From contig NZ_JAFMSU010000001.1 in NCBI RefSeq assembly GCF_017916365.1, positions 2,075,028 to 2,139,027 on the forward strand: a stretch of 64,000 nucleotides of DNA. The letters run 5' to 3'. The stretch is from Rufibacter roseolus. Its GTDB lineage: Bacteria; Bacteroidota; Bacteroidia; Cytophagales; Hymenobacteraceae. Of the stretch, positions 46,854 to 61,354 are shown in pieces; the stretch's first letter is position 1; each line of letters opens with the position of its first letter. Below the pieces are notes generated by a model. The model was not told where the DNA came from. It searched no databases and saw only the letters and a program-made list of their open reading frames with translations. Both the position numbers and the translations under genes were made by a program.

Positions 46854-47031
46854 CCTGTTTAACGCCTGTTTTAGATAAAATACCCTCAAAACAGGATTGG
46901 ACTACAGCAGGAGCAGAAAAAAACGTACTTTCTTAGAAATTTTTTTGTCTTCTAGGGCTTTGACTTTCAAGGGTTAAAATCGGTAGACGTTAGAAATTGC
47001 CCCGAAATTTAGAAAAATACGAGGCTGGCAC

Positions 47032-47062
47032 TTGACAGGTACCTATTAAGCCATTACTTTTG
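47032..47062 (+). promoter_or_regulatory. Promoter of tRNA-Ser
   Basis: TTG at 47032-47034 and TACTTTTG at 47055-47062, 20 bases apart, match the Bacteroidota -33/-7 promoter (TTG ... TAnnTTTG) and end about ten bases before the tRNA. Confidence 0.75.
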
Positions 47063-47072
47063 TATCACATTT

Positions 47073-47157
47073 AGAGAGATGGCAGAGTGGTCGATTGCGG
47101 CGGTCTTGAAAACCGTTGACCTTTGCGGGTCCGGGGGTTCGAATCCCTCTCTCTCTG
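47073..47157 (+). tRNA. tRNA-Ser (anticodon TGA)
   Basis: 85 nt. Acceptor stem AGAGAGA (47073-47079) with TCTCTCT (47150-47156) and discriminator G; anticodon loop CTTGAAA gives TGA; a long variable arm (GTTGACCTTTGCGGGTCC region) is typical of class II tRNA-Ser; T-arm GGGGG-TTCGAAT-CCCTC. CCA is not encoded. The 3' acceptor strand is also the left edge of a long direct repeat repeated at 55826. Confidence 0.96.
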
Positions 47158-47496
47158 CGAGTAAATAGAAAAGCCCTGTAGGTGAAAACTTACAGGGCTT
47201 TTTGTTTTAGTCGGACATATATCGGACCCTTTTGGGTAGCAGATACCTTTGTTACCTGCTTCAATTAACTATGGAAAAGCTTTTAAGTAATTTAAGTGGA
47301 ATAAAAGGGAAGGCACCTTCAAGTTAACAGATGCAGCCTTAGAGAATACATAAAGAGAGGGGCTACGCGGTCACATCGAAATTCAAGAACGCCTGTGTTG
47401 TAAAACATTACAGGTGTTTTTCTTTCAATTCGTACGCATATACGTACAACTTTTGCTTCCCTGCTGCATTTCATCCGTTAGAAAGCCATGTCTTAG
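47149..47496 (+). repeat. Direct repeat copy 1 (tRNA-Ser junction)
   Basis: It starts in the 3' acceptor strand of the tRNA and runs 348 bp. Copy 2 (55826-56175) differs by about 15 substitutions and two single-base indels, roughly 95% identity. It includes the tRNA terminator hairpin (47169-47202), CGGAC-ATATAT-CGGAC, a second hairpin near 47390-47420, and GTACG-CATATA-CGTAC near 47432-47447. It has the look of an attachment site plus the conserved end of an integrated element. Confidence 0.88.
47169..47203 (+). terminator. Terminator of tRNA-Ser
   Basis: AAAAGCCCTGTA with TACAGGGCTTTT around ten bases, then T-rich. The same hairpin is present in repeat copy 2 at 55846-55880. Confidence 0.8.
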
Positions 47497-47698
47497 CTTG
47501 CCTCCTTGATCCCCGAAACCAACCAGTTCCTGTCCTCTCAGGAGGAGTACATAGCTCAATGTATCGTAGCCAACCTCAGGTCAAAGGCCTTCGAAAGGGA
47601 GCAAAGGAAAAAGGAACCAAGAGTCAAGGACACCAAGGCAAGAAGACGAGCAGGAGGCGATGGAAGTCTTGGTAGTTGAGGGTTCAGACAAGCAATAA
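47497..47698 (+). pseudogene. Possible 3' remnant of an unidentified gene
   Basis: Immediately after the repeat a coding-like frame reads LASLIPETNQFLSSQEEYIAQC ... FEREQRKKEPRVKDTKA and then, after a one-base shift, EDEQEAMEVLVVEGSDKQ and a stop at 47698. The composition (charged, helical, few rare codons) suggests the end of a former gene cut at the repeat border. I do not recognise it. Confidence 0.35.
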
Positions 47699-47764
47699 CC
47701 AGGCCTGCCAGACCATTGCTTTATTTGCCTGACTCAATGGGCTGAATTCCGTCGCGCAGCAGGG

Positions 47765-48199
47765 CTAAGCCGGCAGCCCCTCCAACAGGCGCTCTATAGA
47801 TTCCGGGCGGATGGGCTTCACCAGGTACCCGTCGGCCTGCAGCATCCGGGCCCGCTCCCGGTCGATGGGGTTTTCCGAGGAGGTGAGCACCACCACCAGG
47901 GGCTTCGAGGGAAGGGGTAGCCCGCCCATGGCCTCAATCATCTTGAAGCCGCTCATCACCGGCATCTTCAGGTCCACCAGGATGAGTCCGGGGAACTCTT
48001 CCGCCGGCCCTCCGCATGCGGCTTTAACGGCCAGGAACCCCTCCAACCCGTTCACGGCGGTGGCCACGTCCTCGGCGACCTCCATCCTCATCAAGACCTT
48101 TTTGGCCACGAACAGCGCCGAATCGTCATCATCCACCAACAGGACTCTTTTGAATTTTCTCACGTTATACACCTTGTTATTCCTTGGGCAGGTGTCCAT
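47765..48199 (-). CDS. Orphan single-domain response regulator
   Basis: The ATG at 48199 (MDTCPRNNKVYNVRKFKRV) gives 144 residues; a GTG at 48163 (MRKFKRVLLVDDDD) is an alternative. It is a stand-alone CheY-like receiver: acidic pocket LLVDDDDSA, phospho-acceptor Asp in ILVDLKMPVMSGF, Ser/Thr in VVLTSSENP and Lys in GYLVKPIRP. There is no output domain. Such regulators work by protein contact. No histidine kinase gene is adjacent; it is the first complete gene of the island after the tRNA junction. Its leader (48277-48350) is partly repeated at 56231-56305. Confidence 0.88.
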   Translation of the reverse strand: MDTCPRNNKVYNVRKFKRVLLVDDDDSALFVAKKVLMRMEVAEDVATAVNGLEGFLAVKAACGGPAEEFPGLILVDLKMPVMSGFKMIEAMGGLPLPSKPLVVVLTSSENPIDRERARMLQADGYLVKPIRPESIERLLEGLPA

Positions 48200-48627
48200 A
48201 CCTGACCAATACTCCCGACATACCGTTAAATCAAGAGGAAGGTTGCCTGCACCCTGCATAAGGGTATATGCATCCGTAGTTTGTATTTGATGGACGGGGT
48301 ATTTCCGGGATGGAAACGCTTTGGGTTTGACCGGGTAGGTCTGTTTTGACGCTCCTACATTCCTATGACACAAATATGTAAGCCACTCCTAGAGTAGGTT
48401 TTTAAGGAAACAGGACTTTGGCTTCTTTAAAACTCATAGACCTCCATGGTTTGGGCTTAGGGGCTGCCTTATTTAAATTGGATGGGCTCAGTTGCACTCT
48501 CCGTATTTAAGGCAAGTGTTTTATGACTCATATCCAGCATTTTGCATTACAAACGATTTCAATTAACTTGAACGGCCCGGATAGTATCGTCTGTAATCTC
48601 TGCACTGACTATAAACCCAATCACCTG
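48200..48627. other. 428-bp divergent gap
   Basis: Lies between the response-regulator gene (minus) and the PHP-like gene (plus). The part 48277-48350 resembles 56231-56305 beyond repeat copy 2. The plus-strand frame upstream of 48628 does not look coding. No further gene is seen. Confidence 0.5.
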
Positions 48628-50750
48628 ATGATCCTGTTCCAACAATACCTGAGAATCTATTTGCTAAAAGGTTTTAGTACATTTTTTCTAATTTTTGCCT
48701 TCGCCTTAAGCTTGCGGGCGCAGCAGTTGGTGGATGTTTCTCAGTTGGTTAAACGGAATGGGGCCAAGGTGCGGGTGGAGGGCGAGTTGGTGGACATTAC
48801 CTGGCTTACGGGTAGGAACGGGAACGGGAGGTTGGTCCTGGACCTTAATAAGGGCATGCCACTGTTTAAGAGCATAGGTTTAGGGTCCAAAGCCGAGTTT
48901 AAGGAGATCGCAGCTGGGCTTGACCCTGCCTTCATCCTCACGGTAGGCAAAAGGACTCTGGATCCGAAAAGCGGGGGGTGGGACGTGTTCTTTGACCGGG
49001 TTCCCCAAAAGCCCTATAAATCCCATTTGGTTAACTTCCATAAACGTTCTGCAAGCGTGAGCAGCTCTGGCGCCCATACTGTCATCCGTATCCCCGGCAT
49101 GCAGGCGGCCTCCTTCAGGGGAGAACTTGAAATAACACTATACAACGGAAGCCCTCTGTTCAACGTGGCGGCAGTGATGGTTACGGAGGCTGATTCCACC
49201 GCGATCCTCTATGATGCGGGTCTGGTGAGCAAAACCCAGGCTTGGCAGAACATTTCCTGGTCAGATGTGAAGGACGTGCTTCAAACCACAAAGGTGGTAC
49301 ACGAAACTGACGCGGTGAACCAGGAGGTAAAGTACCGCACCATCATCGGACAGGGCAGAGGGGGGAGCCTCGCGCTGTTCCTGCCCCCGCACCAGTATTT
49401 CTATCCCTTGGATGAAGCTTTCAACCTTAAGTTCACCTGGTGGGGGCAGGGCTATGGAGGGCTGATGCCCGGCTACGGGATCGGTATCCGCCAGGACCCG
49501 ATAGGGGGCCGACGTTATGTTCCGTGGTTCAACGCCCCACCGAACACCAGGCAGCGCCTGAATTTCTTCTGCCTGTTGGATCTCGGCAGCCCCGCAAAAG
49601 CCCTGGAGGAGGTAAAGAGATTCACCCACGGCGATTCCTATGTTCCGCTTCATGGTTACAAGACCATGGCCAGCCACTTCCACAACGAGTTCACCATGGA
49701 TGTGGTACTGAAGGGAGTGCCGGTGCCGGAGAAGCCTGAGTTCAAAACGGTCTTCGAGAAGGCCGGAGTGAATATCGTCCATCTTGGGGAGTTCCATGGG
49801 CCAGGCCATCCCAAGGGGCCGGACGAGGAACGGTTGAAGGAACTGCATGCGCTCCATGAGCAGTGCGCCCAGCTTTCAGATGGCTATTTCCTTCTGCTGC
49901 CGGGCGAGGAGCCCAACAACTTCTACGGGGGACATTGGCTCAGCTTTTTCCCAAGGCCCGTTAACTGGATCATGTCAAGGAAGCCAGATATGCCTTTTGT
50001 CTCAGACCATCCTAAATACGGGAAGGTGTACCGTATAGGGGACAAGGAAGAGATGCTGAGACTGCTTGAGCTGGAGAACGGACTAGCCTGGACCGCGCAC
50101 GCTAGGACAAAAGCTTCCACTGGCTATCCTGACGCTTACAAAGGAGAACCGTTCTTCCAATCCGAAACCTTTATGGGCGCGGCCTGGAAAGCTATCCCGG
50201 CGGACCTTTCCCTTCCTACCCTCAGCAAGCGCGTACTAAACCTAATGGACGACATGGCCAACTGGGGCCTGAGGAAGCATGTGATTGCCGAGAAGTGATA
50301 TCTTCACTATTACGGAGCAGAACGAGATGTACGCGCATTTGAACGTGAACTATCTGCAGCTGGATAAGCTGCCCGACTTCAAGGAAGGTTGGCAGCCGGT
50401 GCTGGATGCGATGCGGCAGGGGGAAGTTCTTCGTCTCGACCGGGGAGGTGCTGCTCCCGGGGTTCACCGTGAACGGAAAGGGGGCCTGCGAGACGGCCAA
50501 GGTCCCCCGCTCCGGCAAAGCGAAGATCGCCCTCTCGGCCGCCTGGACCTTCCCCTTGAACTTCGCGGAGATAGTGTCGGGCGACGGAAAAGAAGTGTTC
50601 CGTGAGCGGATAAACCTCAATAATACCCTGGCCTTCGGGAGAAATCAGTTTGAATTTACTGTGGACCTACGCAAGCGGAAATGGGTAAGGCTTGAGCTAT
50701 GGGACATCGCGGCGAACGGTGCCTTCACGCAACAGGTTTGGTTGGAGTAG
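48628..50750 (+). pseudogene. PHP-like metallohydrolase gene interrupted by two +1 frameshifts
   Basis: The ATG at 48628 starts a signal peptide (ending LSLRAQQ) and a frame of 557 codons that stops at 50298. From that ATG, the pattern SHFHNEF (H350, H352), LGEFHG (H390), LLPGEEP (about 426), YGGHWLSFF and TAHARTKASTGYPD (H491) resembles the metal-binding residues of PHP/CehA-like hydrolases. Similarity of coding style then continues in the next frame (SDIFTITEQNEMYAHLNVNY ... DAMRQG) and, from a GGGGG run at about 50418, in the third frame (KFFVSTGEVLLPGFTVNGKG ... FTQQVWLE) to 50750. Removing one base near 50295 and one G at the run restores one protein of about 707 residues. It is either a pseudogene or carries sequencing errors. 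Exported; substrate unknown. Confidence 0.7.
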
Positions 50751-51185
50751 TTTCAAAAATGCCATAGCTTACAATGATACACCTGAATTTTGCTTAAGGT
50801 TGCCTCTGTTGAGGCTGAGACGCGTCTGTATTTACTATACTTTTTTGATACGGCACACAGTACCCAAGTCACTATTCATTACAGCATTTATCAGATAGCC
50901 AAAAGATGCTAACATACCAATTTGCCAATCCTTAAAGGAGCTTTCATCCCTTCCATAGCAAGGTTCAAGGCTACCCCATTAAGCTTTTGGAAAACGCAAG
51001 TAGCCAAGTTTATATAGACTTATTGCCATTCATAAGCAGCATAATACTTACATGTTGGTATTGGTTACAGGTTATTTTAATATAATATTTACAAAATTTA
51101 TTTACAAATTTATATAGTTAAGATTTCTTTATCCTATAATTTCCATAAATATAATTTACCCAAACAAACATAAAACTTATTCTAT
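50751..51185. other. 435-bp AT-rich gap before the beta-helix gene
   Basis: No gene is visible. The last 100 bp are very AT-rich (for example TTACAAATTTATATAG) and probably hold the promoter of the following two-gene unit. Confidence 0.5.
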
Positions 51186-52190
51186 ATGAAAAAAATTATA
51201 CTCCTCATTACAGTTGCCCTATTCCTAGGTGAGTTACAGGCTAAGGTTTTAACCGTCAGCAACAGGGCCGGCAACTCCGCCCAGTATCAAACAGTCCCTG
51301 CAGCCATCACCGCGGCGTCAGCGGGGGACACTATTTATATTCATGGGTCGGAGACCTCATACGGCGACATCACCATCGACAAGAAACTCACCATCATAGG
51401 TTCTGGCCACAACCCAAAAAAGGAACTGGCGCTCGTCTCAACCTTAGGTACGGTTTCGATAGATGCCTTCAATGGAGGGGCGAGCGGCACCTCCCTCATA
51501 GGCCTTAGGATCGCGGCCGTGAACAGCCCCAATTACGGGCAGAAGGATGTCACGATCAAGAGGTGCAGGGTGGATTCTTATATCAGTGCTTTCGGAGCAA
51601 CGGGCGGAATCTCCACAAATTGGGTAATAGAGAACTGCATCTTCCCGTATGTGCAAATTCCCCATGATGTTACCAAGGTCTCGAATTTTCTTATTAGGAA
51701 CAATATCATCACGCAGGGGCTTTTCGGAACCAACTCATGCGTGATCGATAACAATGTCTTCATCGGGTCCAGCGCGGCCTTTTCGGATGTCCACTACGCC
51801 ATTATCCAGAACAACGTCTTCTACGGGGCAACGCCTAAAGGGGCTTCCAACTCGACCTTCAACAACAACATCACCTTCTCGGCTTCGGACTCTGCGCTTC
51901 CCTACGGCAACAACGGCGGTAGCCAGAACAAAGTGAACGTGGACCCCAAGTTCACCAAGTTCACGGCCAACATGGGATTCAGCTACGACCATGATTACCG
52001 GCTGCAAGCATCCTCGCCGGGTAAGAACGCCGGTACTGACAAAACAGACATAGGGATATACGGGGGCATCGGCTTCTCGGAGACCGGGGAGCCCCCCGTG
52101 CCGGTTGTCCGGGTGTTCACCATCCTGAACGGCGTGGTCGCCCCCAACGGCAAACTCAACATAAAGATCAGCGCAGAAGCCAAAAACTAG
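51186..52190 (+). CDS. Secreted right-handed parallel beta-helix protein
   Basis: 334 residues; signal peptide about 1-19 (LGELQA). The next part (YQTVPAAITAASAGDTIYIHGSETSYGDITIDKKLTIIGSG) is the classic opening of parallel beta-helix proteins, and later coils show N-ladders (WVIENCIF, FLIRNNIITQG, CVIDNNVFIG, AIIQNNVFYG, STFNNNITF). The end (VNVDPKFTKF ... DYRLQASSPGKNAGTDKTDIGIYGG) is typical of such surface proteins. It has no sorting domain of its own. It lies 9 bp before the T9SS repeat protein gene, so the two are made together; a glycan- or surface-binding role is inferred. Confidence 0.85.
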   Translation: MKKIILLITVALFLGELQAKVLTVSNRAGNSAQYQTVPAAITAASAGDTIYIHGSETSYGDITIDKKLTIIGSGHNPKKELALVSTLGTVSIDAFNGGASGTSLIGLRIAAVNSPNYGQKDVTIKRCRVDSYISAFGATGGISTNWVIENCIFPYVQIPHDVTKVSNFLIRNNIITQGLFGTNSCVIDNNVFIGSSAAFSDVHYAIIQNNVFYGATPKGASNSTFNNNITFSASDSALPYGNNGGSQNKVNVDPKFTKFTANMGFSYDHDYRLQASSPGKNAGTDKTDIGIYGGIGFSETGEPPVPVVRVFTILNGVVAPNGKLNIKISAEAKN

Positions 52191-52199
52191 GGCGTTGCC

Positions 52200-55100
52200 A
52201 TGAAGCTACTGAAAACTATCGGGGCAATCGGCATCTTGCTGCTTTTCTCTGCTCTCCAAGCCTTAGGCCAGACGGTTGCAAAGGGCGAGTACTTCTTCGA
52301 TACCGACCCGGGTCTGGGCAAGGCAAAGGCACTTGCCGTCTCCCCAGGCGGGCTGGTGGACGTCACAGCCGAGGTGGGCACCGAGGGGCTTACTCCCGGT
52401 TTCCATACCCTCTTCGTGCGCTTCCAGGACCAGAATAGACGCTGGGGGCTGAGCGAGGGCCGTACCTTCCTGGTGGAACAGCGGCTGGCCGCGGCCAACA
52501 GCGCCATCGCTAGGGCCGAGTATTTCTTCGACTCCGATCCGGGTCTGGGCAAGGGCAAGGCGCTGCCAGGAGGCACCGGCGCCGTGGTAGATGTCTCTGC
52601 TGAGGTAGGCACCGAAGGGTTGGCCGACGGCTTCCACACCCTTTTCGTCAGGTTCCAAGACCAGAAGGGACACTGGGGATTGAGCGAGGGCCGCACGTTC
52701 CTGGTGGAGCGCAGGTTGGACCCCGCCAACACCGCTGTTGCGAAGGGAGAGTTTTTCTTTGACTCGGATCCGGGGCTGGGCAAAGGCAATGCGCTGCCAG
52801 TGGGCATGGGCGGGCTGGTGGACATCACGGCGGAAGTGGGCACCGAGGGACTTGCCCCAGGTTTCCACACGCTCTTCGTGCGTTTCCAGGACAAGCAGGG
52901 CCGCTGGGGCCTGAGCGAGGGGCGGGCTGTTCACATCCGGAAAGGTGAGGATGCTTCCGCCACCATCGTCGCCGCCGAGTATTTCTTCGACAATGCCAAC
53001 CCGGAACCTGGCAAGGGAACGCCATTGGTGATAGAGCGGGGTGCCATGCTGGAGACGGAGAGGCAGATAAATACGGCTGGCCTCGCCTTGGGTAAGCATC
53101 GCCTTCAGCTGCGCCTGCGTGACAGCAGGGGCACTTGGGGCCCACCTGAGATCAAAGAATTCACGGTGGCCAATCCGCGGCTTGACAATATTACCCCGGC
53201 ATCAGGGGGCAACCTAGGGGATGTGACCATGAATATCCTAGGGGCCAGCTTCGACCCAGGAACGAAGGTGAGGCTCAAGCGTACCGGGCAACCTGACATT
53301 GCCGTACCGGATTCGATGGTTACAACCTTCAACGGAGACCAAGTACAAGCGGTATTAAATCTTAGGGGGAAGGCCACCGGAGATTACGACGTTGAGCTTA
53401 CCCTGGGAAACGGCACCGTGTTGACCAAGCCGAAGGGATTCACCGTCATAGAGGGTGTTGCTGCCCACCCTTGGGCCGAGATTCTCGGCTTCGACAGGAT
53501 TAGGATCGGCCAATGGCAGACCTATACCCTTTCCTACGGGAACAAGGGAAACGTTGATGCCCATGGGGTGCCGCTGTACTTCGCAGTCTCGGATGAGGCA
53601 GAAATCAAGACTGACTTTGCGTTCGAAAAACCCTCTGAGTCTTTTAATGTCGCCCCGAATGCGATTTATGACTCTATCCCTGATTACATCGTCGTTGATA
53701 CGCTCATGGGGTATACCAAAAAGATGAAGCTGGTGAGCATCTATGTTCCGGCGATTGCAGGTAACTCCACCAACAGCCTCTCCTTCAAGGTGAAGGTGAA
53801 CTCTTCCAAACCTATAGAGGTCTTTGCATGGGCGGGTGAGCCGCTATTCGGTTCTCCCCTGAAAGGGTGGGCCTCTGAGTGCATGGACAACCTTTTCGAT
53901 CTTGCCGCCGGGACGAACCCTATAACCAACTGCTTGAACAATGCATTTAACACAGGGTATGAGGCCGGGAACGTTATCAACAAAGCAATCGAGAAGGAAA
54001 GCTGGGGGCATTTGGCCGCAGGTATTTTTTTGAAGATGCCGGCTGTAATTGTATCAAACACTTTGGATTGTGCCCTGAGTCCAATCAAAGCGACTACCGT
54101 GGCTATGAAAATGATAAAAACGGTTATAAAGGTTGCAGCTGAAAAGACCACCGGGAATTCAGGTATAGGTATTCCTGGGACAGGGGGGCTCAATCTTGAC
54201 ATATTAGAGAGCTGCCTTCCACCGCCGGAGCCACCCAAACCGCCCAAGCCGGTTCAGCCCGTCAACTCCTTCGACCCAAATGACAAGATCGGGCTGGCAG
54301 GGGCCGGGCCCCTCAACTTCATAACGGGCACGGAGGTGTTCCCCTACGTCATTCGGTTCGAGAACAAGGCCTCCGCCACGGCCGCGGCGCAGACCGTCAG
54401 GATTGTGGATACCTTGGACATGAACACACTGGACATCTCCACGCTCCAGCTGGGCTTCTTCAGCTTCGATGATGTGATCGTCAATGTGCCCCCGGGAAGG
54501 AAAAATTACACGGTGGATGTGGACCTGCGCCCGAAAAACAACCTGATCGTGAGAATTGAGGCCAAACTGGATGAGCAGAAGGGGATACTCACCTGGCTGT
54601 ACTCCTCCCTGGACCCGGCCACCCTGCTGCCCACCGAGGACCCAGAGGCTGGGTTCCTTCCGCCAAACAAAACGGCTCCCCAAGGGGAAGGCGGTGTTTT
54701 CTATACGATCAAGCCCAAGGCCGACTTACCTACCGATGCCAAGATCAGGAATAAGGCTTATATCTTTTTCGATAACAATGAGGTGATCCCAACCCCAACT
54801 TGGGCAAACTCCGTTGACAAGACACCGCCTGTGAGCAAGGTGAAAGAACTGGCGCAGACCCAGAGGACAGAAGAGTTCAGGGTTGAGTGGGGTGGCGCAG
54901 ACGAGGGGGCAGGCATCGCCGAGTATTCCGTTTTCGTGGCGGTAAACGGCGCGCCCTACAAGCTTTGGCTGGACGGGGTGACTACTGCGTCAGCCCTGTT
55001 CAAAGGCAAACAGGACTCCACTTACCACTTCTACAGCGTGGCTACGGATAGTGCCGGGTACCGGGAGTCGGCCCCCGTGGTCCCAGACGCCACCACGAAA

Positions 55101-55370
55101 GTCTCACTTGTGACCGGCATGGAGGAGGAGTTCGGCAACCAAATCACTGTTTACCCGAATCCGGCATCGCACACCCTGGTGGTTGAGTTGCCTGAAGAGA
55201 TGCGCAAAAGCAGGTTTGGCATGTTCGACATCTCTGGCAGGCTGAAAGTAGACTTGGCGGCTGAGAGCCTGAGCACGAGCATTTCGGTTTCCCACCTGCC
55301 GAAAGGCATATACCTGCTCCGCATCTCCAACGGAGGCTTGGTGGTTACCCGTAAAGTGGTGCTTAGGTAG
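52200..55370 (+). CDS. Large T9SS surface protein with four 77-residue repeats
   Basis: 1056 residues. Signal peptide (about 1-23, LQALGQ). Then four tandem repeats of 77 residues (about 27-335), each with AEYFFDxDPGLGKG, a VDVTAEVGTEGL-like middle, GFHTLFVRFQDxxGxWGLSEGR; the fourth is diverged. An IPT/TIG-like fold follows (DNITPASGG, about 335-420), then a CARDB/DUF11-like part, a Pro-rich hinge (PPPEPPKPPKPVQPV, near 680), a conserved DUF7619-type domain (SFDPNDKIGLAG ... FENKASATAAAQTVRIVDTLD ... YIFFDNNE), an FN3-like domain and a type A T9SS sorting domain (TVYPNPASHTLVVELP ... GIYLLRISNG). Probably a cell-surface adhesin. The ATG is 9 bp after the beta-helix gene stop. Confidence 0.9.
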   Translation: MKLLKTIGAIGILLLFSALQALGQTVAKGEYFFDTDPGLGKAKALAVSPGGLVDVTAEVGTEGLTPGFHTLFVRFQDQNRRWGLSEGRTFLVEQRLAAANSAIARAEYFFDSDPGLGKGKALPGGTGAVVDVSAEVGTEGLADGFHTLFVRFQDQKGHWGLSEGRTFLVERRLDPANTAVAKGEFFFDSDPGLGKGNALPVGMGGLVDITAEVGTEGLAPGFHTLFVRFQDKQGRWGLSEGRAVHIRKGEDASATIVAAEYFFDNANPEPGKGTPLVIERGAMLETERQINTAGLALGKHRLQLRLRDSRGTWGPPEIKEFTVANPRLDNITPASGGNLGDVTMNILGASFDPGTKVRLKRTGQPDIAVPDSMVTTFNGDQVQAVLNLRGKATGDYDVELTLGNGTVLTKPKGFTVIEGVAAHPWAEILGFDRIRIGQWQTYTLSYGNKGNVDAHGVPLYFAVSDEAEIKTDFAFEKPSESFNVAPNAIYDSIPDYIVVDTLMGYTKKMKLVSIYVPAIAGNSTNSLSFKVKVNSSKPIEVFAWAGEPLFGSPLKGWASECMDNLFDLAAGTNPITNCLNNAFNTGYEAGNVINKAIEKESWGHLAAGIFLKMPAVIVSNTLDCALSPIKATTVAMKMIKTVIKVAAEKTTGNSGIGIPGTGGLNLDILESCLPPPEPPKPPKPVQPVNSFDPNDKIGLAGAGPLNFITGTEVFPYVIRFENKASATAAAQTVRIVDTLDMNTLDISTLQLGFFSFDDVIVNVPPGRKNYTVDVDLRPKNNLIVRIEAKLDEQKGILTWLYSSLDPATLLPTEDPEAGFLPPNKTAPQGEGGVFYTIKPKADLPTDAKIRNKAYIFFDNNEVIPTPTWANSVDKTPPVSKVKELAQTQRTEEFRVEWGGADEGAGIAEYSVFVAVNGAPYKLWLDGVTTASALFKGKQDSTYHFYSVATDSAGYRESAPVVPDATTKVSLVTGMEEEFGNQITVYPNPASHTLVVELPEEMRKSRFGMFDISGRLKVDLAAESLSTSISVSHLPKGIYLLRISNGGLVVTRKVVLR
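52278..53201 (+). repeat. Four 231-bp tandem repeats inside the T9SS surface gene
   Basis: Unit starts at about 52278, 52509, 52740 and 52971, an exact 231-bp period. Units 1-3 are close in sequence (GGCCTGAGCGAGGG-type segments recur); unit 4 is clearly diverged. Confidence 0.85.
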
Positions 55371-55777
55371 ATGCCGTCATTGCAACAGGCTATACTGTTG
55401 GTTTAAGATTAGTCTATACTCTATCTTATGGTCAAGAGCTGTCCTGAACCCGGTGGCTCTTGACCATTCTCTTTTGCGGCTGTACCGCCATCTTGTCTGC
55501 CTCTAGCGGGGATCCCTTTTGGGCACAACCTAGGGGAGCTCAAGGGCCCTTTTAGTATGGGGCGATCAGGCCTTCAGGAATGGATACTCGGCACAGCAAG
55601 CGTATATCTTTGATTGTAAGGGTAGATGGGGTGTTTGGCACCCGGAAATGTCCCTATGATTTCGTGATTTCAAGAATGGGTGTGACTGTTGTACCAAGAG
55701 ATTGTTAATTCTGGGAGCCATACATGTTACTGTTCCAGCAACCTTCCGATCCCATCCTTTTACAACCCCTATATCGC
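55371..55777. other. Gap before the second repeat
   Basis: Apart from the terminator at 55429-55466, no gene is seen. It ends at the ATG of a truncated reading frame. Confidence 0.5.
55429..55466 (+). terminator. Terminator after the T9SS surface gene
   Basis: TGGTCAAGAGC with GCTCTTGACCA, loop of 16 bases, T-rich after. Confidence 0.75.
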
Positions 55778-55858
55778 ATGAACATCCTCATCTCGGACAT
55801 CTCCGGTATCCTGGCCGTGCAGCACCTCTCTCTGCGAGTAAATAGAAAAGCCCTGTAG
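55778..55858 (+). pseudogene. Truncated gene start fused to the second tRNA-Ser repeat
   Basis: ATG at 55778 opens MNILISDISGILAVQH, which runs straight into repeat copy 2 (from 55826) and stops after 26 codons. The first 16 codons look like a genuine gene start; ILIS resembles both response-regulator starts (MNILI) and the start of the STAS-like protein at 59437 (ILISEPHIAIRH). Likely the 5' stub of a gene cut by integration or recombination at the repeat. Confidence 0.4.
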
Positions 55859-56175
55859 GTGAAAACTTACAGGGCTTTTTGTTTTAGTTCGGACATATAT
55901 CGGACCCTTTTGGGTAGCAGATACCTTTGTTACCTACTTCAATTAACAATTGAAAAGCTTTAAAGCAATTTAAGTGGAATAAAAGGGAAGGCACCTTCAA
56001 GTTAACAGATGCATCCTTAGAGAATACATAAAGAGAGGGGCTACGCGACCACATCGAAATTTGAAAACGCCTGTGTTGTAAAACATTACAGGTGTTTTTC
56101 TTTCAATTCGTACGCATATACGTACAACTTTTGCTTCTCTGCCGCATTTCATCTGTTAGAAAGCCATGGCTTAGG
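55826..56175 (+). repeat. Direct repeat copy 2 (tRNA-Ser 3' end and following 340 bp)
   Basis: Second copy of 47149-47496, beginning with CTCTCTCTGCGAG, the 3' acceptor strand of tRNA-Ser. The rest of the tRNA is absent. The repeat would mark the right border of the 8.7-kb unit or the left end of a second, related element. Beyond it, 56231-56305 resembles the leader of the response-regulator gene, but no regulator gene follows. Confidence 0.88.
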
Positions 56176-56758
56176 GTGCGTAATTTTCTTCGCATCTTCC
56201 CTTTTTACGCAGCAACGGACTATGCCCCGGTAGCTTGTATTTGAAGGGGGAATATATTACCCTGATTGAAATGCTTTGGGTCAGACCGGGTGGGCTGGAT
56301 TTAGACAGGTCTCCATAACGTTGTTCCAAGCCAGATTGGAGACCGGGAGCGGTAATGAGCAAAATTACACAAACTTCCTCTTTCGCGCCGTATCCTCAGC
56401 GGATTAGGGTTGAGCGGCGGTTACTTAGCCGTCCGGCCGCCGTGCCGTACCGTAGATCGGGTTATGAATGAGGGCGGACATTCCGGAGAATCCTGGTTGC
56501 CTGTTCCGTTTTTAGGTTTGTTCCGGCCGGTTGGTTGCCTTTCTGAGAGGGATTTCACCAAGCGGTGACGTAAGGGGCCTAATGATTTGAAGGTAGCCCT
56601 TGCTTTAACCCGCCCTTGGCAGGAAGCGTGAAAATATGGAGATATGCGAGCGGCTAATACCGGAAAGCCGTAGATTTCCGCTGAATCACGGGGCATTCCG
56701 AAGCTCCGTTTGTCAACAGCGGGTATCCCAGCAGATGAGCAGATGGAGAAACCACCCT
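56176..56758. other. 583-bp stretch after the second repeat
   Basis: 56231-56305 is a diverged copy of the response-regulator leader (shared TTGTATTTGA and GCTTTGGGT...GACCGGGT). On the minus strand ATGCGAAGAAAATTACGC at 56180-56197 may be a stub of the same gene start. Otherwise no gene is recognisable. Confidence 0.4.
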
Positions 56759-56944
56759 ATGATTCTCCTTGACTACCCAGCCTCGGAAGGCACAGGCAAG
56801 TGGTACCTGCCCAGTCGGGGGCAGTACTCAGTTACCAGGGGGATTGTCACCGTGGATGGTTTCGACTCCTTCTTCGAGGCCTACAGGTACGCCCTGAATC
56901 GGTTCGGCTCAGAGGACTTCCTGGTGAGGAAGAAAGGGTGGTGA
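56759..56944 (+). CDS. Hypothetical small protein
   Basis: ATG at 56759 opens a 61-residue frame (MILLDYPASEGTGKWYLPSRG ... VDGFDSFFEAYRYALNRFGSEDFLVRKKGW). The residue pattern, with an aromatic-rich amphipathic helix (SFFEAYRYALNRF), looks like a real small protein, but no family is recognised and the upstream frame extends further without clear start. Could be a remnant. Confidence 0.4.
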   Translation: MILLDYPASEGTGKWYLPSRGQYSVTRGIVTVDGFDSFFEAYRYALNRFGSEDFLVRKKGW

Positions 56945-57131
56945 GCCTACCACCCTCCAAGGTAGGGAATTCGCTTCGGCTGAAACCTTTTAGGGTGGAG
57001 CCCCAGAGTGATGAACGCCCGTTCGGGGTAGCGAAACCTGGCCACTCTGGAGCCCGTCTAGTGACACGGACTTCCCTGCCGGAATGCAGCCTTTGTATAG
57101 CCAGCATAAATTCAGACTAGAGAGGAAAGGC

Positions 57132-58514
57132 CTAATACCTGATTACCCGCACCGCCGCATGGCCGGCGGCCGTCTCTACCTGTGCGAGGTACATGCCCGG
57201 TGCCTGGCCGGAGAGATCCAGGGCCAGCTCCTGTCCTTCCCCCAAAAGGCGCCTTGAAATCACCCGGCCATTCGCTTGGGAAAGGGTGAGGATGGCCGGT
57301 CCCGCTTGGGGCCTCCCCATGACCAGAATGGCCTTGCCCTGAGTGGGGTTGGGCCGTGCCGAAAGGGAAAGCAGGGCTTCCTTGGCGGCCTTCACCGCCA
57401 CTACCTTCGACAACTCTTCCTTCCCGTCCGTGTCTACCTGCCGGAGGCGGTAATAGGCGGTGCCCGCCAAGGGTGACCTGTCCTCGAAGGCGTAGGTCTG
57501 GGCCACGCTGGAGGTGCCGTGCCCCCTTACCTGTCCCAAGGCTTGGAAAACCTTCCCGTCGGCGCTCCTCTCCACACCGAAGAAGTCGTTGTCTTTCTCC
57601 GAAGCCGTCGCCCAGGAAAGGGTCACCGCTCCAGGGGAAGGTTTGGCGGAGAAGGCGGTCAGCTGCACCGGCAGGGTCGTTGGTTCCGTCACCGGGATGG
57701 AGTAGGTGGCAGGCTCCGAGTACCGGGCGCTCCTCCCGGCAGGCGCCGCCATCCTTGCGGTGGATGAGGCGGCTGCGTCCCTTGCCACGTACGTGAAGGA
57801 GGCTACCCCTGAAAAGGAAGGGTTTGGCGTGAACACCAACTGGCCGGCCTGCCCTATGGTCAAGTCATAGGACCCGGCCTCGCTCACGGGAATATCGGCC
57901 AGGCCGCCCGGCACCCTCAGGCTCAGCTTCCCCTGCGCCGGGGCGGGAAGGGCCGTGACCCTGTATCCTGCGACCTGGCCTCCGCTGGCCTCCAGCGTGA
58001 TCTCAGCCTGCCCACCGATGTTTGGGATTGGCTTGGAGATCTTGCTCACGGCCGAGGGCACGGGCACTGCCCCTATGTATATGCTGTACACGGCCGGAAC
58101 GGCCGACTCCCTGCCGCCGGCGTCGATAACGGCGTAGGCGAAAGTGACAACCGTGCCGCCGGTCTTGCTGCCTACTTTGAAGTATAGCTGTCCGGTGCTC
58201 ACCACCTGGCCTGCCGAGAGTTCGACGGCGGTGCCGTTGCTGCCGGTAGACAGGGCACCGGAGGAGGGCAGTGATAGGATGCGGTACCTGAGCGCCTCGC
58301 CCTCCGCGTCGGTCCCCTCCAAGGGGGAGATCGCCTGCCAGGAACCCCATGCCCGGTCAACGGCGAATGACACGTTGCTGGCCACTGGGGCATTGTTTGC
58401 CTGTGCCAGGGAGGGAGCGGAAAAGGCAAGTGAAAAAAGCAGAGAGGCCGAAAATAGAAGCAGTCTAGCTGATTTGGGTACAAAGGGAAAATTCAAAAAA
58501 GCCAAAAACTCCAT
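57132..58514 (-). CDS. T9SS-exported protein with cadherin-like/Ig domains
   Basis: 460 residues. Signal peptide about 1-37 (ending SLAQA). Residues 40-150 form a cadherin-like/BIg segment (APVASNVSFAVDRAWGSWQAISPLEGTDAEGEALRYRILSLPSSGAL); 160-275 a second such fold (GYRVTALPAPAQGKLSL ... VFTPNPSFSGVASFTYVARD); 285-375 the T9SS-linked stretch LPVQLTAFSAKPSPGAVTLSWATASEKDNDFFGVERSADGKVFQALG ... YYRLRQVDTDGK; and a type A sorting domain (LSARPNPTQGKAILVM ... GMYLAQVE ... VRVIRY). Short surface protein of unknown binding partner; it faces away from the second repeat. Confidence 0.88.
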   Translation of the reverse strand: MEFLAFLNFPFVPKSARLLLFSASLLFSLAFSAPSLAQANNAPVASNVSFAVDRAWGSWQAISPLEGTDAEGEALRYRILSLPSSGALSTGSNGTAVELSAGQVVSTGQLYFKVGSKTGGTVVTFAYAVIDAGGRESAVPAVYSIYIGAVPVPSAVSKISKPIPNIGGQAEITLEASGGQVAGYRVTALPAPAQGKLSLRVPGGLADIPVSEAGSYDLTIGQAGQLVFTPNPSFSGVASFTYVARDAAASSTARMAAPAGRSARYSEPATYSIPVTEPTTLPVQLTAFSAKPSPGAVTLSWATASEKDNDFFGVERSADGKVFQALGQVRGHGTSSVAQTYAFEDRSPLAGTAYYRLRQVDTDGKEELSKVVAVKAAKEALLSLSARPNPTQGKAILVMGRPQAGPAILTLSQANGRVISRRLLGEGQELALDLSGQAPGMYLAQVETAAGHAAVRVIRY

Positions 58515-59038: not shown

Positions 59039-59437
59039 TCACACCGCCCGAAGCCACTCCTCGGCGGCCTCCTTACCTTGGAAGGTGGTCACCATCACTC
59101 CCCTGACCCCGAACCCGAGCGCTTTGTCGGCCGAGAGCCTGGCGTACACGTCAGGGGAGTAGACGTGGGCCAGAAAACGGCACCCTGCCCGGTGCATCCG
59201 CGGGATCCAGTCCAGAGCCACCCACTCGGCCGCGTCCGACCACATGCCTGTGACGCGGGTGTTGTCGTTGAGGAGCTTGTGGCACTGGTGGAAGGCCAGT
59301 ACCTTCAGTATCCTCTCGCAGCCGTCCCTGACAGTTGCTTCCGTCTGTTCCCCGACCCAATCGGCGTAGAGGAGGTCACCCGCCATGCTGTGGCGGATGG
59401 CGATGTGGGGTTCGGAGATGAGTATTCTTCCGTCCAT
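59039..59437 (-). CDS. STAS/SEC14-like small protein, paralogue A
   Basis: 132 residues, one of three related proteins in this cluster. Shared frame: an early beta-strand pair (RHSMAGDLLYADWVG), helix with TEATVRDGCERILKVLAFH, strand plus turn KLLNDNTRVTGMWSDAAEWVALDWIPRMHRAGCRFLAHVYSPDVYARLSAD, and a final TTFQGKEAAEEWLRAV. The fold pattern (alternating strands and helices, conserved LLND and W....A..W...W.P) resembles STAS/SpoIIAA-like domains used as protein switches. Ligand, partner and phosphorylation site are not evident. It follows the GAF gene by 27 bp and is last in the minus-strand cluster. Confidence 0.75.
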   Translation of the reverse strand: MDGRILISEPHIAIRHSMAGDLLYADWVGEQTEATVRDGCERILKVLAFHQCHKLLNDNTRVTGMWSDAAEWVALDWIPRMHRAGCRFLAHVYSPDVYARLSADKALGFGVRGVMVTTFQGKEAAEEWLRAV

Positions 59438-59464
59438 TCTTGAGGTCTCTTCGTTGTCAATGTC

Positions 59465-59977
59465 TTAGGTTGTACCCCGCTCGATGCTCTCCATCACCAC
59501 GGAGGCGAGGCTCTCCAGCGCCCGCCGGTCGTCTTCGGAGAACTCCCTCGGCTCCCTGTCCACGAGGCAGAGAGCGCCGATGTTGAAGCCGTCCATGGTG
59601 GTCAGCGGCGCTGCCGCGTAGAAGCGGAGGCCGAGGCCGCCCGTCACCAGGGGGTTCGCCAGCAGGCAGGGTTCAGCGAGGGCGTTCTCGAAAACGGTGG
59701 TATCCGATCGGAGCACGGCCAGCGAGCAGAGGCTGGTGCCCCGGGGTACGGACGAAAGAGGCTCGGGCATGCCAGAGCTGCCCTTTGCGTGCACGTACTC
59801 GCGGTCCACCAGGTTCACTAGGGCAATGGGTACCTTGAACACGCGCGCCGCCATGGCCGCGATGTGCTTGAAGGTGCCTTCCTCCCGGTGGGTGTCCAGG
59901 AGGTGCAGGCTGCGCAGCTTGGCCAGCCTCTCCTCTTCGTTGTCGGGAATGAGGGGTATTCCAAAGGTATTCTCCAT
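59465..59977 (-). CDS. GAF domain protein
   Basis: 170 residues made almost entirely of one GAF domain: NEEERLAKLRSLHLLDTHREEGTFKHIAAMAARVFKVPIALVNLVDREYVHAKGSSG, SSVPRGTSLCSLAVLRSDTTVFENALAEP, GLRFYAAAPLTTMDGFNIGALCLVDREPREFSEDDRRALESLASVVMESIE. This subgroup often heads histidine kinases or diguanylate cyclases, but no output domain is attached here. A Cys sits in SLCSLAV, where some members bind a chromophore or sense redox; no more can be said. It belongs to the kinase-less sensory set. Confidence 0.88.
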   Translation of the reverse strand: MENTFGIPLIPDNEEERLAKLRSLHLLDTHREEGTFKHIAAMAARVFKVPIALVNLVDREYVHAKGSSGMPEPLSSVPRGTSLCSLAVLRSDTTVFENALAEPCLLANPLVTGGLGLRFYAAAPLTTMDGFNIGALCLVDREPREFSEDDRRALESLASVVMESIERGTT

Positions 59978-60497
59978 TAATTGCTGTTAGGGTAAGGGAC
60001 CGTGGCCGGTTTGCCCGCGGGTGTTCCTTCTAACCTGTTTCCGGGGGGGTGGGTTACAAAAATAAACATGGGTACGATTTCCTCCGCGGGTTTTAGTGCG
60101 TGATCTTCCCCCAAGCGCCGTAATCAGCATGCCCCCGGGCCCTCTGTCCTGCAACCCACATAGGGGGATTCTGCCGGCCTACCGCCAGTAAAGGGAGAAC
60201 CGAAGCATGGTGGCGCCAATTCCCCTTCCTTTTATTGGACAGCCGACAAGTGACGTATGAAAGGCACTCCTAAGCCATAGAGGCAAAAAGCCTTATTGTA
60301 TTCTTCCGATCTTTTTATTTTCTCTTACGTGAAAAGAGGTGATCGGCGGCAAGGCGTGACCAATACCCTCTTTTACACCAAACTCCGTAAACTTATGGGT
60401 TGTCTTCCTGGGCTCTTTCCCTCTTGTCGTGCCCTTGGTGTTTCGGTTTCCCGGAACTGTTGTGACCAAGCCTCCAGAATGGGGAAGCGCATCCCCC
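59978..60497. other. 520-bp gap inside the sensory cluster
   Basis: No coding frame with sensible residue composition on either strand; no hairpin or tRNA noticed. It probably holds the promoter of the GAF/STAS-like gene pair. Confidence 0.45.
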
Positions 60498-60920
60498 TCA
60501 GGTACCGACGGACTGAAGCCACGCCTCGGCCTTCCGCCGGTCGTCGAACGTTCTGATCTCGAACTCATCGCCGATCCGCTGTATCAGCGACTCCACCGTC
60601 ATGGTGGCGTAGATGCTGGTCGGCACGACATAGGCAAGGTATCGCAGGCCCGCCTTCCGCATCTGGGGCGCCCATTCTTTCTCGGCCCACTCCAAGGCCA
60701 TGTCCCAGGACCCGATCACGTGCTCGTTGCTGTTGAGGAGCTTGGTGAACGGCTCCTCCCTGATCATTTCCAGGTACTTGTGGCCGCCGCCCTTCACAGT
60801 TTCCTCTGACTGCGCCCCGTACCAGTGGCCGTAGACGATGGCGCCGAAGGTGGCCCTCCTGGCTCGAAAGTACACCTCCCCGAAAACTCTCTTCAATTCC
60901 ACCTGCCATACCTGGTCCAT
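60498..60920 (-). CDS. STAS/SEC14-like small protein, paralogue B
   Basis: The ATG at 60920 (MDQVWQVELKRVFGEVYFRA) lies 5 bp after the stop of the upstream paralogue, with AGGGGGA just before it, and gives 140 residues; an ATG at 60935 would overlap that gene. It shares the family frame: ATFGAIVYGHWYGAQSEETVKGGGHKYLEMI, FTKLLNSNEHVIGSWDMALEWAEKEWAPQMRKAGLRYLAYVVPTSIYATMTVESLIQRI, FDDRRKAEAWLQSV. Closest in the window to paralogue C, which precedes it in the same operon. Function unknown; probably a non-enzymatic switch or adaptor. Confidence 0.75.
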   Translation of the reverse strand: MDQVWQVELKRVFGEVYFRARRATFGAIVYGHWYGAQSEETVKGGGHKYLEMIREEPFTKLLNSNEHVIGSWDMALEWAEKEWAPQMRKAGLRYLAYVVPTSIYATMTVESLIQRIGDEFEIRTFDDRRKAEAWLQSVGT

Positions 60921-60925
60921 TCCCC

Positions 60926-61354
60926 CTAGGCCCATCTATTTGTGTTTTGGATTGAAAACTGCCGCAGCCATTGGCGGGCGGCGCTTATATTGTCGAACAC
61001 CCTCGCCTCGAAGGCCTTCAGGTTGGAGTAGAAGGCGGAGGCGGAGGACTCGGCGAAGGTCTGCGGGGTGGTCACCATCGCGAAGTGCCGCAGCCCGGCC
61101 CGGGCGGCCTGCGGCGCCCACTCTTTCACGACCCACTCCACGGAGTGGTCCCAACTCCCGATCACCTTGCTGGTGTCATTCAGCACGCAGTTGAACCCTG
61201 CTTTCCGCAGGGCGTCGGTGTAGGCCAGGGCGCCTGCCTTGAGGCTCTCCTCCGTCAGGTAGCCCATCCAGTCGGTGTGTACCCATTTGTTCTCGCGGTC
61301 CACCGTCACCGTTAGGTAGACATTGCCGAACGCGTTCCTGTACTCTTGTGTCAT
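60926..61354 (-). CDS. STAS/SEC14-like small protein, paralogue C
   Basis: 142 residues. VYLTVTVDRENKWVHTDWMGYLTEESLKAGALAYTDALRKAGFNCVLNDTSKVIGSWDHSVEWVVKEWAPQAARAGLRHFAMVTTPQTFAESSASAFYSNLKAFEARVFDNISAARQWLRQF aligns along its whole length with paralogues A and B, especially LND/LN-N, V-G-W/SW, EW, W-P and the end W-L. The order C-B with five bases between suggests duplication in place. It sits downstream of the CZB-like and PAS genes on the same strand. Confidence 0.75.
   Translation of the reverse strand: MTQEYRNAFGNVYLTVTVDRENKWVHTDWMGYLTEESLKAGALAYTDALRKAGFNCVLNDTSKVIGSWDHSVEWVVKEWAPQAARAGLRHFAMVTTPQTFAESSASAFYSNLKAFEARVFDNISAARQWLRQFSIQNTNRWA

Follow-up and report, generated by a model that had tools for sequence, protein, structure and literature searches.

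Composite tRNA-Ser/tRNA-Arg repeats bracket an integrase-less island, probably one of two related islands in tandem, behind tRNA-Ser(TGA) of Rufibacter roseolus

Islands can stack up when integration recurs at the end of one gene and units decay until they lack an integrase, a course described as the accretion of cis-mobilizable elements (CIMEs) in the available part of one source (PMC5704250). The islands downstream of the ssrA gene in Dehalococcoides, as presented in the available part of another (PMC3146451), carry an integration module in 16 of 31 cases; this module includes a small serine recombinase, which is encoded on the reverse strand next to attL. Here an 8.7-kb interval behind tRNA-Ser(TGA) of Rufibacter roseolus was analysed. 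It is bracketed by two long direct repeats, termed S1 and S2, and lies in a 64,000-nucleotide stretch of contig C1 (2075028-2139027), hereafter the window, whose coordinates are used unless a contig or locus is named. The kind of event is already known; the new details are the composite Ser/Arg end of the repeat and an adjoining short repeat, S80.

The repeat pair and its tRNA gene are placed as follows.
47073..47158, + strand: tRNA-Ser(TGA), intact, the proposed integration site (ARAGORN; the Rfam tRNA match spans 47073-47157)
47149..47496, + strand: S1, the repeat copy and left end beside tRNA-Ser (repeat search, global alignment)
55826..56174, + strand: S2, the second repeat copy (repeat search, global alignment)

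Global alignment of S1 and S2 gave 333 identical columns out of 349, with 15 mismatches and one 1-nt gap. The first 63 nt agree exactly, and the repeat search splits the pair into 47149-47211/55826-55888 (100%) and 47199-47498/55877-56176 (93%). The two starts are 8677 nt apart, and both copies open with the last 10 nt of tRNA-Ser(TGA), CTCTCTCTGC; of the tRNA, S2 holds these 10 nt only. A first-pass annotation, made from the letters of the window, had described direct repeats of about 350 bp and 95% identity, far longer than a simple attachment (att) core and beginning in the tRNA-Ser 3' end. Identity and length are borne out; the account of the start is correct for the last 10 nt and incomplete, as a tRNA-Arg(ACG) end also lies inside the repeat.

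A whole-genome search with S1 recovered S2 at E 4e-158 and no third copy of the whole repeat in the 5.5-Mb, 7-contig assembly. The search for further copies that the annotation had proposed thus returned the pair itself, together with diverged copies of the second half (81-84% identity) behind tRNA-Arg(ACG) and tRNA-Ser(GGA) and short matches at tRNA-Asp and another tRNA-Ser. An assembly duplicate is an unlikely source of S1 and S2, because the copies differ and share one 2.3-Mb contig. Neither copy contains an open reading frame (ORF) of at least 60 aa, so the flanking repeats have no transposase such as an insertion-sequence-flanked composite transposon carries.

The long direct repeat is a composite island end and not a single att core. 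Its internal features are listed below.
47168..47203, + strand: hairpin 1 of S1, terminator-like (RNA fold z -6.9; the same sequence stands in S2 at 55845-55880)
47363..47376, + strand: tRNA-Arg(ACG) 3'-end remnant in S1 (two changes relative to S2; 0 of 500 shuffles)
47385..47425, + strand: hairpin 2 of S1, terminator-like (RNA fold z -5.2; S2 counterpart at 56063-56103)
56041..56054, + strand: tRNA-Arg(ACG) 3'-end remnant in S2, CTACGCGACCACAT (0 of 500 shuffles)

The order is the last 10 nt of tRNA-Ser, hairpin 1, CGGACATATATCGGAC, about 140 nt, the Arg remnant, hairpin 2, CGTACGCATATACGTAC and then DNA of the kind found downstream of tRNA-Arg. From the Arg remnant onwards (56041-56309), S2 matches the DNA behind the intact tRNA-Arg(ACG) of the genome at 81.6%, and the score of the remnant exceeded all 500 shuffles in S1 and likewise in S2. 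With the same test, the module at tRNA-Ser(GGA) of this genome also shows a supported Arg remnant (0 of 500), of which only ACCACA is tRNA; the remnant is weak in the tRNA-Ser(TGA) module of Sabulibacter ruber (G012; 23 of 500) and absent from that of R. psychrotolerans (G002; 366 of 500). In relatives, Arg 3' ends with the same downstream DNA also occur without the tRNA: R. hautae (G004), S. ruber (contig C189), R. latericius (G003, contig C19) and genome G006 hold further Arg-end copies 0.5-1 Mb from tRNA-Arg or on other contigs. The Arg-end DNA has therefore moved, and S1 and S2 are one destination.

Two observations adjoin these modules. At G004:C1:1120064-1138713 in R. hautae and G003:C19:369337-387993 in R. 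latericius, an insertion of about 18.4 kb, its two ends alike, interrupts the Arg-end module at one and the same position; read by eye, the inserted sequence partly resembles a SusC/SusD-type gene pair. CGGACATATATCGGAC was also considered as a dispersed site and rejected: GTTCGGACATATATCGGAC at up to 3 mismatches occurs at three places in the genome, all of them known modules, and a control also gave 3.

Behind each repeat copy stands S80, and the interval ends in a cut gene.
48276..48348, + strand: S80 copy 1 (E 2.6e-17), 0.78 kb behind S1
55778..55825, + strand: first 16 codons of the wHTH gene, cut off where S2 begins
56229..56305, + strand: S80 copy 2 (E 1.7e-18), 55 bp behind S2
56636..56944, + strand: ORF102, with a homologue between S80 and wHTH in R. 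latericius (G003:C19)

S80 is a discrete repeat of about 85 bp. Across 28 copies, filtered for those not joined to a tRNA module (at least two module copies slipped in), identity of the flanks drops at once to 24-30% on the left and to about 26% past 100 nt on the right. A sequence model (E ≤0.01), whose seed copies had been identified through homology to this locus, detected at least 42 copies in 10 of the 16 genus genomes, this one included, and at least six in this genome; these counts are lower bounds, the best 150 candidates per genome having been scored. Nineteen of the 42 lie within 15 kb of tRNA-Ser(TGA), tRNA-Arg(ACG) or tRNA-Ser(GGA), where 0.63 were expected; places of tRNA-Ser(GGA) were entered for five genomes only, where the presence of the module or of a match to it had brought them to notice. 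All 19 are downstream of the tRNA and 18 share its orientation. When the six copies within 525 bp of a tRNA are left aside, the remaining 13 are all downstream, 12 of them in tRNA orientation. Another copy of this genome lies downstream of tmRNA, on its strand and about 18.6 kb away. In this genus, S80 marks islands.

Elsewhere in the genus, the island family has the following order: S80, often a small serine recombinase, cargo, and wHTH, a label given by look alone to a 131-aa gene with no Pfam or NCBIfam match (winged helix-turn-helix). Six places have a serine recombinase behind S80 on the opposite strand, with 114-155 bp between S80 and the aligned part: the gene is a 219-aa form (Pfam Resolvase, 5e-31) or a relative of it, the relatives being 54-100% identical and in some cases broken. 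A remnant of the recombinase is also found about 40 bp past the module that this genome has at tRNA-Ser(GGA); the S80 of that module has decayed too far to count among the 42. The wHTH gene occurs at eight places in five of the 16 genomes. At seven of these places it is 1.1-7.4 kb downstream of S80 and shares its strand; the gene is open at five of them and has a single stop at the other two. The interval follows this order, with S80 at 48276, cargo, and the start of wHTH at 55778, 7.4 kb from S80, and the truncation point of wHTH is exactly the start of the tRNA-Ser end of S2. Behind S2 come the second S80 (56229) and then ORF102 (56636); on contig C19 of R. latericius the order is S80, recombinase, histidine kinase, ORF102 homologue, wHTH. 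No wHTH was found behind S2. The series from S80 through cargo to a cut wHTH inside the interval, together with S80 and ORF102 behind S2, is the main support for two related islands.

Three further properties of S80 and its surroundings were recorded. A conserved RNA fold was rejected, the candidate having five weak pairs and -0.2 kcal/mol. A role as an invertible switch was set aside likewise: no inverted pair was common to four loci, and R. sediminis (G011) has one inverted pair of 25 nt (76%) between an S80 edge and the DNA on its left. In three genomes a 369-aa gene of unknown family ends about 320-340 bp from S80 (L276:14429-15538, L279:6250-7359 and L195:7603-8712), two of these places being behind tRNA-Ser(GGA) and the third behind tRNA-Arg(ACG).

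The genome was searched for a recombinase that could belong to this locus. Phage_integrase (PF00589) has four matches in the genome, of which the sole one on this contig is 93 kb to the left of the window. The window is thus free of an integrase gene, as the annotation had stated, and its suggestion to look downstream of the 64 kb led to nothing, the only match of the contig being on the other side. Four Rufibacter tyrosine integrases, used as tblastn queries (E ≤1), had no match within 60 kb behind tRNA-Ser, nor anywhere in the window; matches elsewhere at E 0.5-0.7 were weak and set aside. The 219-aa serine recombinase also had no match in the window or in those 60 kb.

The protein encoded just left of tRNA-Ser is 98% identical to that of R. 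hautae and 85-95% identical to those of nine other Rufibacter or Sabulibacter species. Behind tRNA-Ser, over the 9.8-60 kb read in each, the 15 other genus genomes all lack a second copy of the repeat. In R. psychrotolerans a single tRNA-Ser end runs into a module with S80, without duplication. Genome G009 has, about 300 nt after tRNA-Ser, homologues of 60926-61354 (62%), 60498-60935 (75%) and 59465-59977 (68%), and R. roseus has a homologue of 59465-59977 1.6 kb behind tRNA-Ser; in the window this three-gene block starts 12 kb behind tRNA-Ser, and its order and orientation differ from those in G009. Synteny with R. hautae resumes at 64997, after 19 kb in R. hautae without DNA similarity. The comparison with an empty site, proposed in the annotation, therefore yielded G009 and R. 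psychrotolerans as relatives without the repeat pair, G009 with its block inverted and reordered.

Elements with a tyrosine integrase are present in the genus at the same tRNA-Ser and tRNA-Arg targets and on the same downstream side. R. sediminis carries an intact-looking one at tRNA-Ser: its tyrosine recombinase (409 aa) is encoded 0.2 kb behind the tRNA, and 23.3 kb away lies a second tRNA-Ser end, an exact 30-nt att copy. Behind tRNA-Arg, downstream DNA is displaced by 21 kb in S. ruber (17-nt att repeat) and by 42 kb in genome G014 (19-nt att repeat), with an integrase gene within 1 kb in each; in G006 the att repeat is 46 nt long and lies, next to an integrase gene, 42 kb behind tRNA-Arg. 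A 47-nt fragment stands about 24.5 kb behind tRNA-Arg in R. glacialis (G015), its left partner not being found in the stretch read. These elements differ from the present locus in their att repeats of 17-46 nt and in an integrase gene about 1 kb or less from one att end. The end of the R. sediminis element carries a near-copy of the host terminator, as does the repeated end here. Because the hairpins behind its two att copies are nearly the same, element ends in the genus can carry terminator copies, and the 350-bp end, though longer, may be of the same nature.

Compared with the CIME/ICESt1-type systems in the available part of PMC5704250, this locus shares decayed integrase-less units, att-like boundaries at a conserved gene's 3' end and tandem stacking. 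The interval is bounded by S1 and S2 as att-like copies of the target-gene 3' end, of which 10 nt only are tRNA, and it holds none of the integrase genes that characterize integrative and conjugative elements, integrative and mobilizable elements or prophages. The differences are that the repeated end is about 350 bp rather than a short att core and has ends of two tRNA genes, and its att site is putative. The Dehalococcoides ssrA islands are a close parallel in that many tandem islands lie downstream of one RNA gene, but those islands are bounded by 20-bp ssrA repeats and have the large serine integrase DsiB in their module, and the available part of PMC3146451 does not mention a composite tRNA end for them.

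Taken together, these data indicate that two related, integrase-less islands have probably accreted in tandem at tRNA-Ser in a CIME-like manner. The tandem arrangement appears in the left ends S1 and S2, in the S80 copies at 48276 and 56229 in the same orientation, and in the cut wHTH that ends the inner unit. The DNA behind tRNA-Ser(TGA) would be an island hot spot, where a first island of the Rufibacter family may have settled. A second, related island would then have entered at the same tRNA 3' end by site-specific integration, restored the tRNA and pushed the first 8.7 kb downstream. The direct repeat would be long because each island brought the same left end of about 350 bp with its own terminator. 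As this end is composite, with Arg inside Ser, an older tRNA-Arg(ACG) end with its downstream DNA would be nested in a newer tRNA-Ser end, and the end or a forerunner of it would have been at tRNA-Arg before tRNA-Ser. Neither island, presumably mobile in the past, now has a recognisable recombinase; the joining may have been the work of a tyrosine integrase that uses the tRNA end, as R. sediminis has, or of the serine recombinase acting on S80. The inner island appears to be decaying, given the 0.78 kb with a response regulator before S80, the split metallohydrolase and the wHTH cut to 16 codons.

The first-pass view of the locus as an island site and of the repeat as an element end is supported by this anatomy. 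Its suggestion of two tandem elements with the same left end also fits best, by the S80-wHTH order and by S80 and ORF102 behind S2; integration in preference to an old duplication with later loss does not follow from it.

A number of observations weigh against accretion by integration. No recombinase was found in the interval, and Pfam and NCBIfam scans of its larger ORFs returned no transfer or recombination family, no search specific to relaxases being included. No third tRNA-Ser end (exact CTCTCTCTGC) that could be the right edge of the older island is present in the approximately 179 kb from S2 to the contig end. The tRNA part of S2 is 10 nt, against att repeats of 17-46 nt, mostly tRNA sequence, in the four integrase-bearing elements. 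Blastn matches of S2 at the tRNA-Ser sites of relatives end after nt 54-90, and the approximately 140 nt between the Ser and Arg ends have no blastn match there. The inversion and reordering of the block in G009 leave no clean empty site. As to the family signature, 23 of the 42 S80 copies are outside the 15-kb range of the three listed tRNAs; one, in G003:C20, is about 6.4 kb behind tRNA-Val in the opposite orientation, and most others inspected have no tRNA in the stretches read. The eighth wHTH place, G004:C1:1652290, is a 26-aa fragment with no listed S80 near it. ORF102 is not a strict family gene, since two homologues lie to the left of S80 in R. latericius (G003:C4), and confidence in the two islands was lowered slightly for this reason.

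A tandem duplication with later loss would yield the same junction. Such a duplication, from the tRNA-Ser 3' end to wHTH by illegitimate recombination, with later deletions and insertions that spared only the ends of about 350 bp, is rather unlikely. It would account for a junction that joins coding sequence (wHTH codon 16) to a tRNA end without visible homology, and for S1 and S2 being mutually closest in the genome (95%, partial copies elsewhere being 81-84%). Between 47.5-55.8 kb and 56.2-64 kb, however, there is no further direct repeat of at least 25 nt, and a junction inside the tRNA 3' end, beside island signatures, would be unexpected if it were random. Quite improbable is Campbell-style entry, in which RecA-type homologous recombination in the 350-bp end would take up a circular molecule without a site-specific recombinase. 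One crossover in the shared end gives the observed topology, and the failure to find a recombinase gene agrees with it, but the start of identity in the tRNA 3' end, where the integrase-bearing elements of the genus also start, is left unexplained. That the repeat is ordinary interspersed DNA flanking these genes by chance is highly improbable: the adjoining S80 is indeed dispersed, with its six or more copies in this genome, whereas the full repeat occurs twice, the longer partial copies of its second half are behind tRNA-Arg(ACG) and tRNA-Ser(GGA), and S80 shows a strong association with positions downstream of tRNAs.

With regard to the two islands in tandem, the composite ends apparently record the movement of islands between tRNA genes, and S80 with wHTH is a simple marker for a Rufibacter island family that an integrase search would miss in this genome. 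A bolder proposal, itself unlikely, is that the small serine recombinase behind S80 uses this repeat as its crossover site; it would build directional island stacks behind tRNAs and leave S1 and S2 as two fossils. Moving island ends would then collect tRNA ends, and an island that had switched tRNA would carry landing sites for the integrases of both. Should S80 and the recombinase prove to be functionally linked, Bacteroidota would have an accretion system tied to tRNA genes; the literature covered deals with integrons, tandem integrative elements and CIMEs.

The interval encodes the following genes, and the three-gene block lies beyond it.
47765..48259, - strand: response-regulator gene between S1 and S80 copy 1 (Pfam PF00072)
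48523..50750, + strand: metallohydrolase-like gene, split into two ORFs in different frames (48523-50298 and 50406-50750)
51186..52190, + strand: cargo gene, 334 aa, no Pfam or NCBIfam match
52200..55370, + strand: cargo gene, 1056 aa, with tandem repeats of about 77 aa at its start and a type IX secretion system (T9SS) C-terminal sorting domain
59465..61354, - strand: three-gene block with homologues close behind tRNA-Ser in G009, an older neighbourhood, rearranged

The cargo is decayed and sporadic in the genus. The metallohydrolase-like gene is open as 718 aa in R. sediminis and 706 aa in R. roseus (G008), and its split frame is either decay or a sequencing error. It is present in three of the 16 genomes, in R. 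sediminis about 2 kb behind tRNA-Arg(ACG), and 77% nucleotide identity argues against recent exchange. At 52273-52991, the 1056-aa T9SS gene has tandem 231-bp (77-aa) repeats; three complete copies, 70-74% alike, are followed by the beginning of a fourth. PADLOC gave no match for eight proteins, so a defence role is not indicated. A query of 7992 of the 8677 bases matched no phage record and one plasmid, of Hymenobacter, whose similarity of 66.5% covers 17% of the query and falls in the metallohydrolase region; a phage or plasmid origin was rejected. The interval does not stand out in base composition, and Rfam found tRNA alone as known RNA in 46900-57200. Around the three-gene block, 59039-61354 holds three small paralogous genes of unknown family (132, 145 and 142 aa; 32-36% identical) around a 170-aa gene.

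The interval was also considered as an integron array and rejected: between S1 and S2 there is no GGCCGNCGGCC core, the attC-like core of the genus and the one type sought. A single GGCCGNCGGCC core at 57161 is outside the interval, inside a coding gene.

Integron-like arrays are found elsewhere in the genus: on the 3' side of a tyrosine recombinase of about 490 aa stands a row of small genes on the same strand, many of them separated by attC-like sites. A review mentions integrons in Bacteroidota (PMC8618304); no paper linking Rufibacter with integrons was found in the library searched. The array of this genome (G000:C2:1466001-1477844; L275:1-11844) comprises a 489-aa tyrosine recombinase with an N-terminal extension of about 200 aa, 17 same-strand ORFs (70-301 aa) on its 3' side and 11 strict GGCCGNCGGCC attC-like cores, the recombinase and cassettes facing the same way. 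With 206 bits against a cut-off of 265 (NCBIfam integron integrase) and 210 against 220 (XerA/integron integrase), the recombinase falls below both cut-offs and so, judged by these models, is not a member; its best solved relatives are a XerC-like recombinase, XerA and IntI4. Four attC-like strings, one of them inexact, folded as DNA with z -1.6 to -3.5. The stretch behind the recombinase is common to R. hautae and could be attI. In R. hautae an array with 8 strict cores (L276:2546-14110) is located behind tRNA-Ser(GGA), between a composite end and another S80. Single attC-like cores also occur in tRNA-Ser(TGA) islands, one in R. hautae and two in Sabulibacter.

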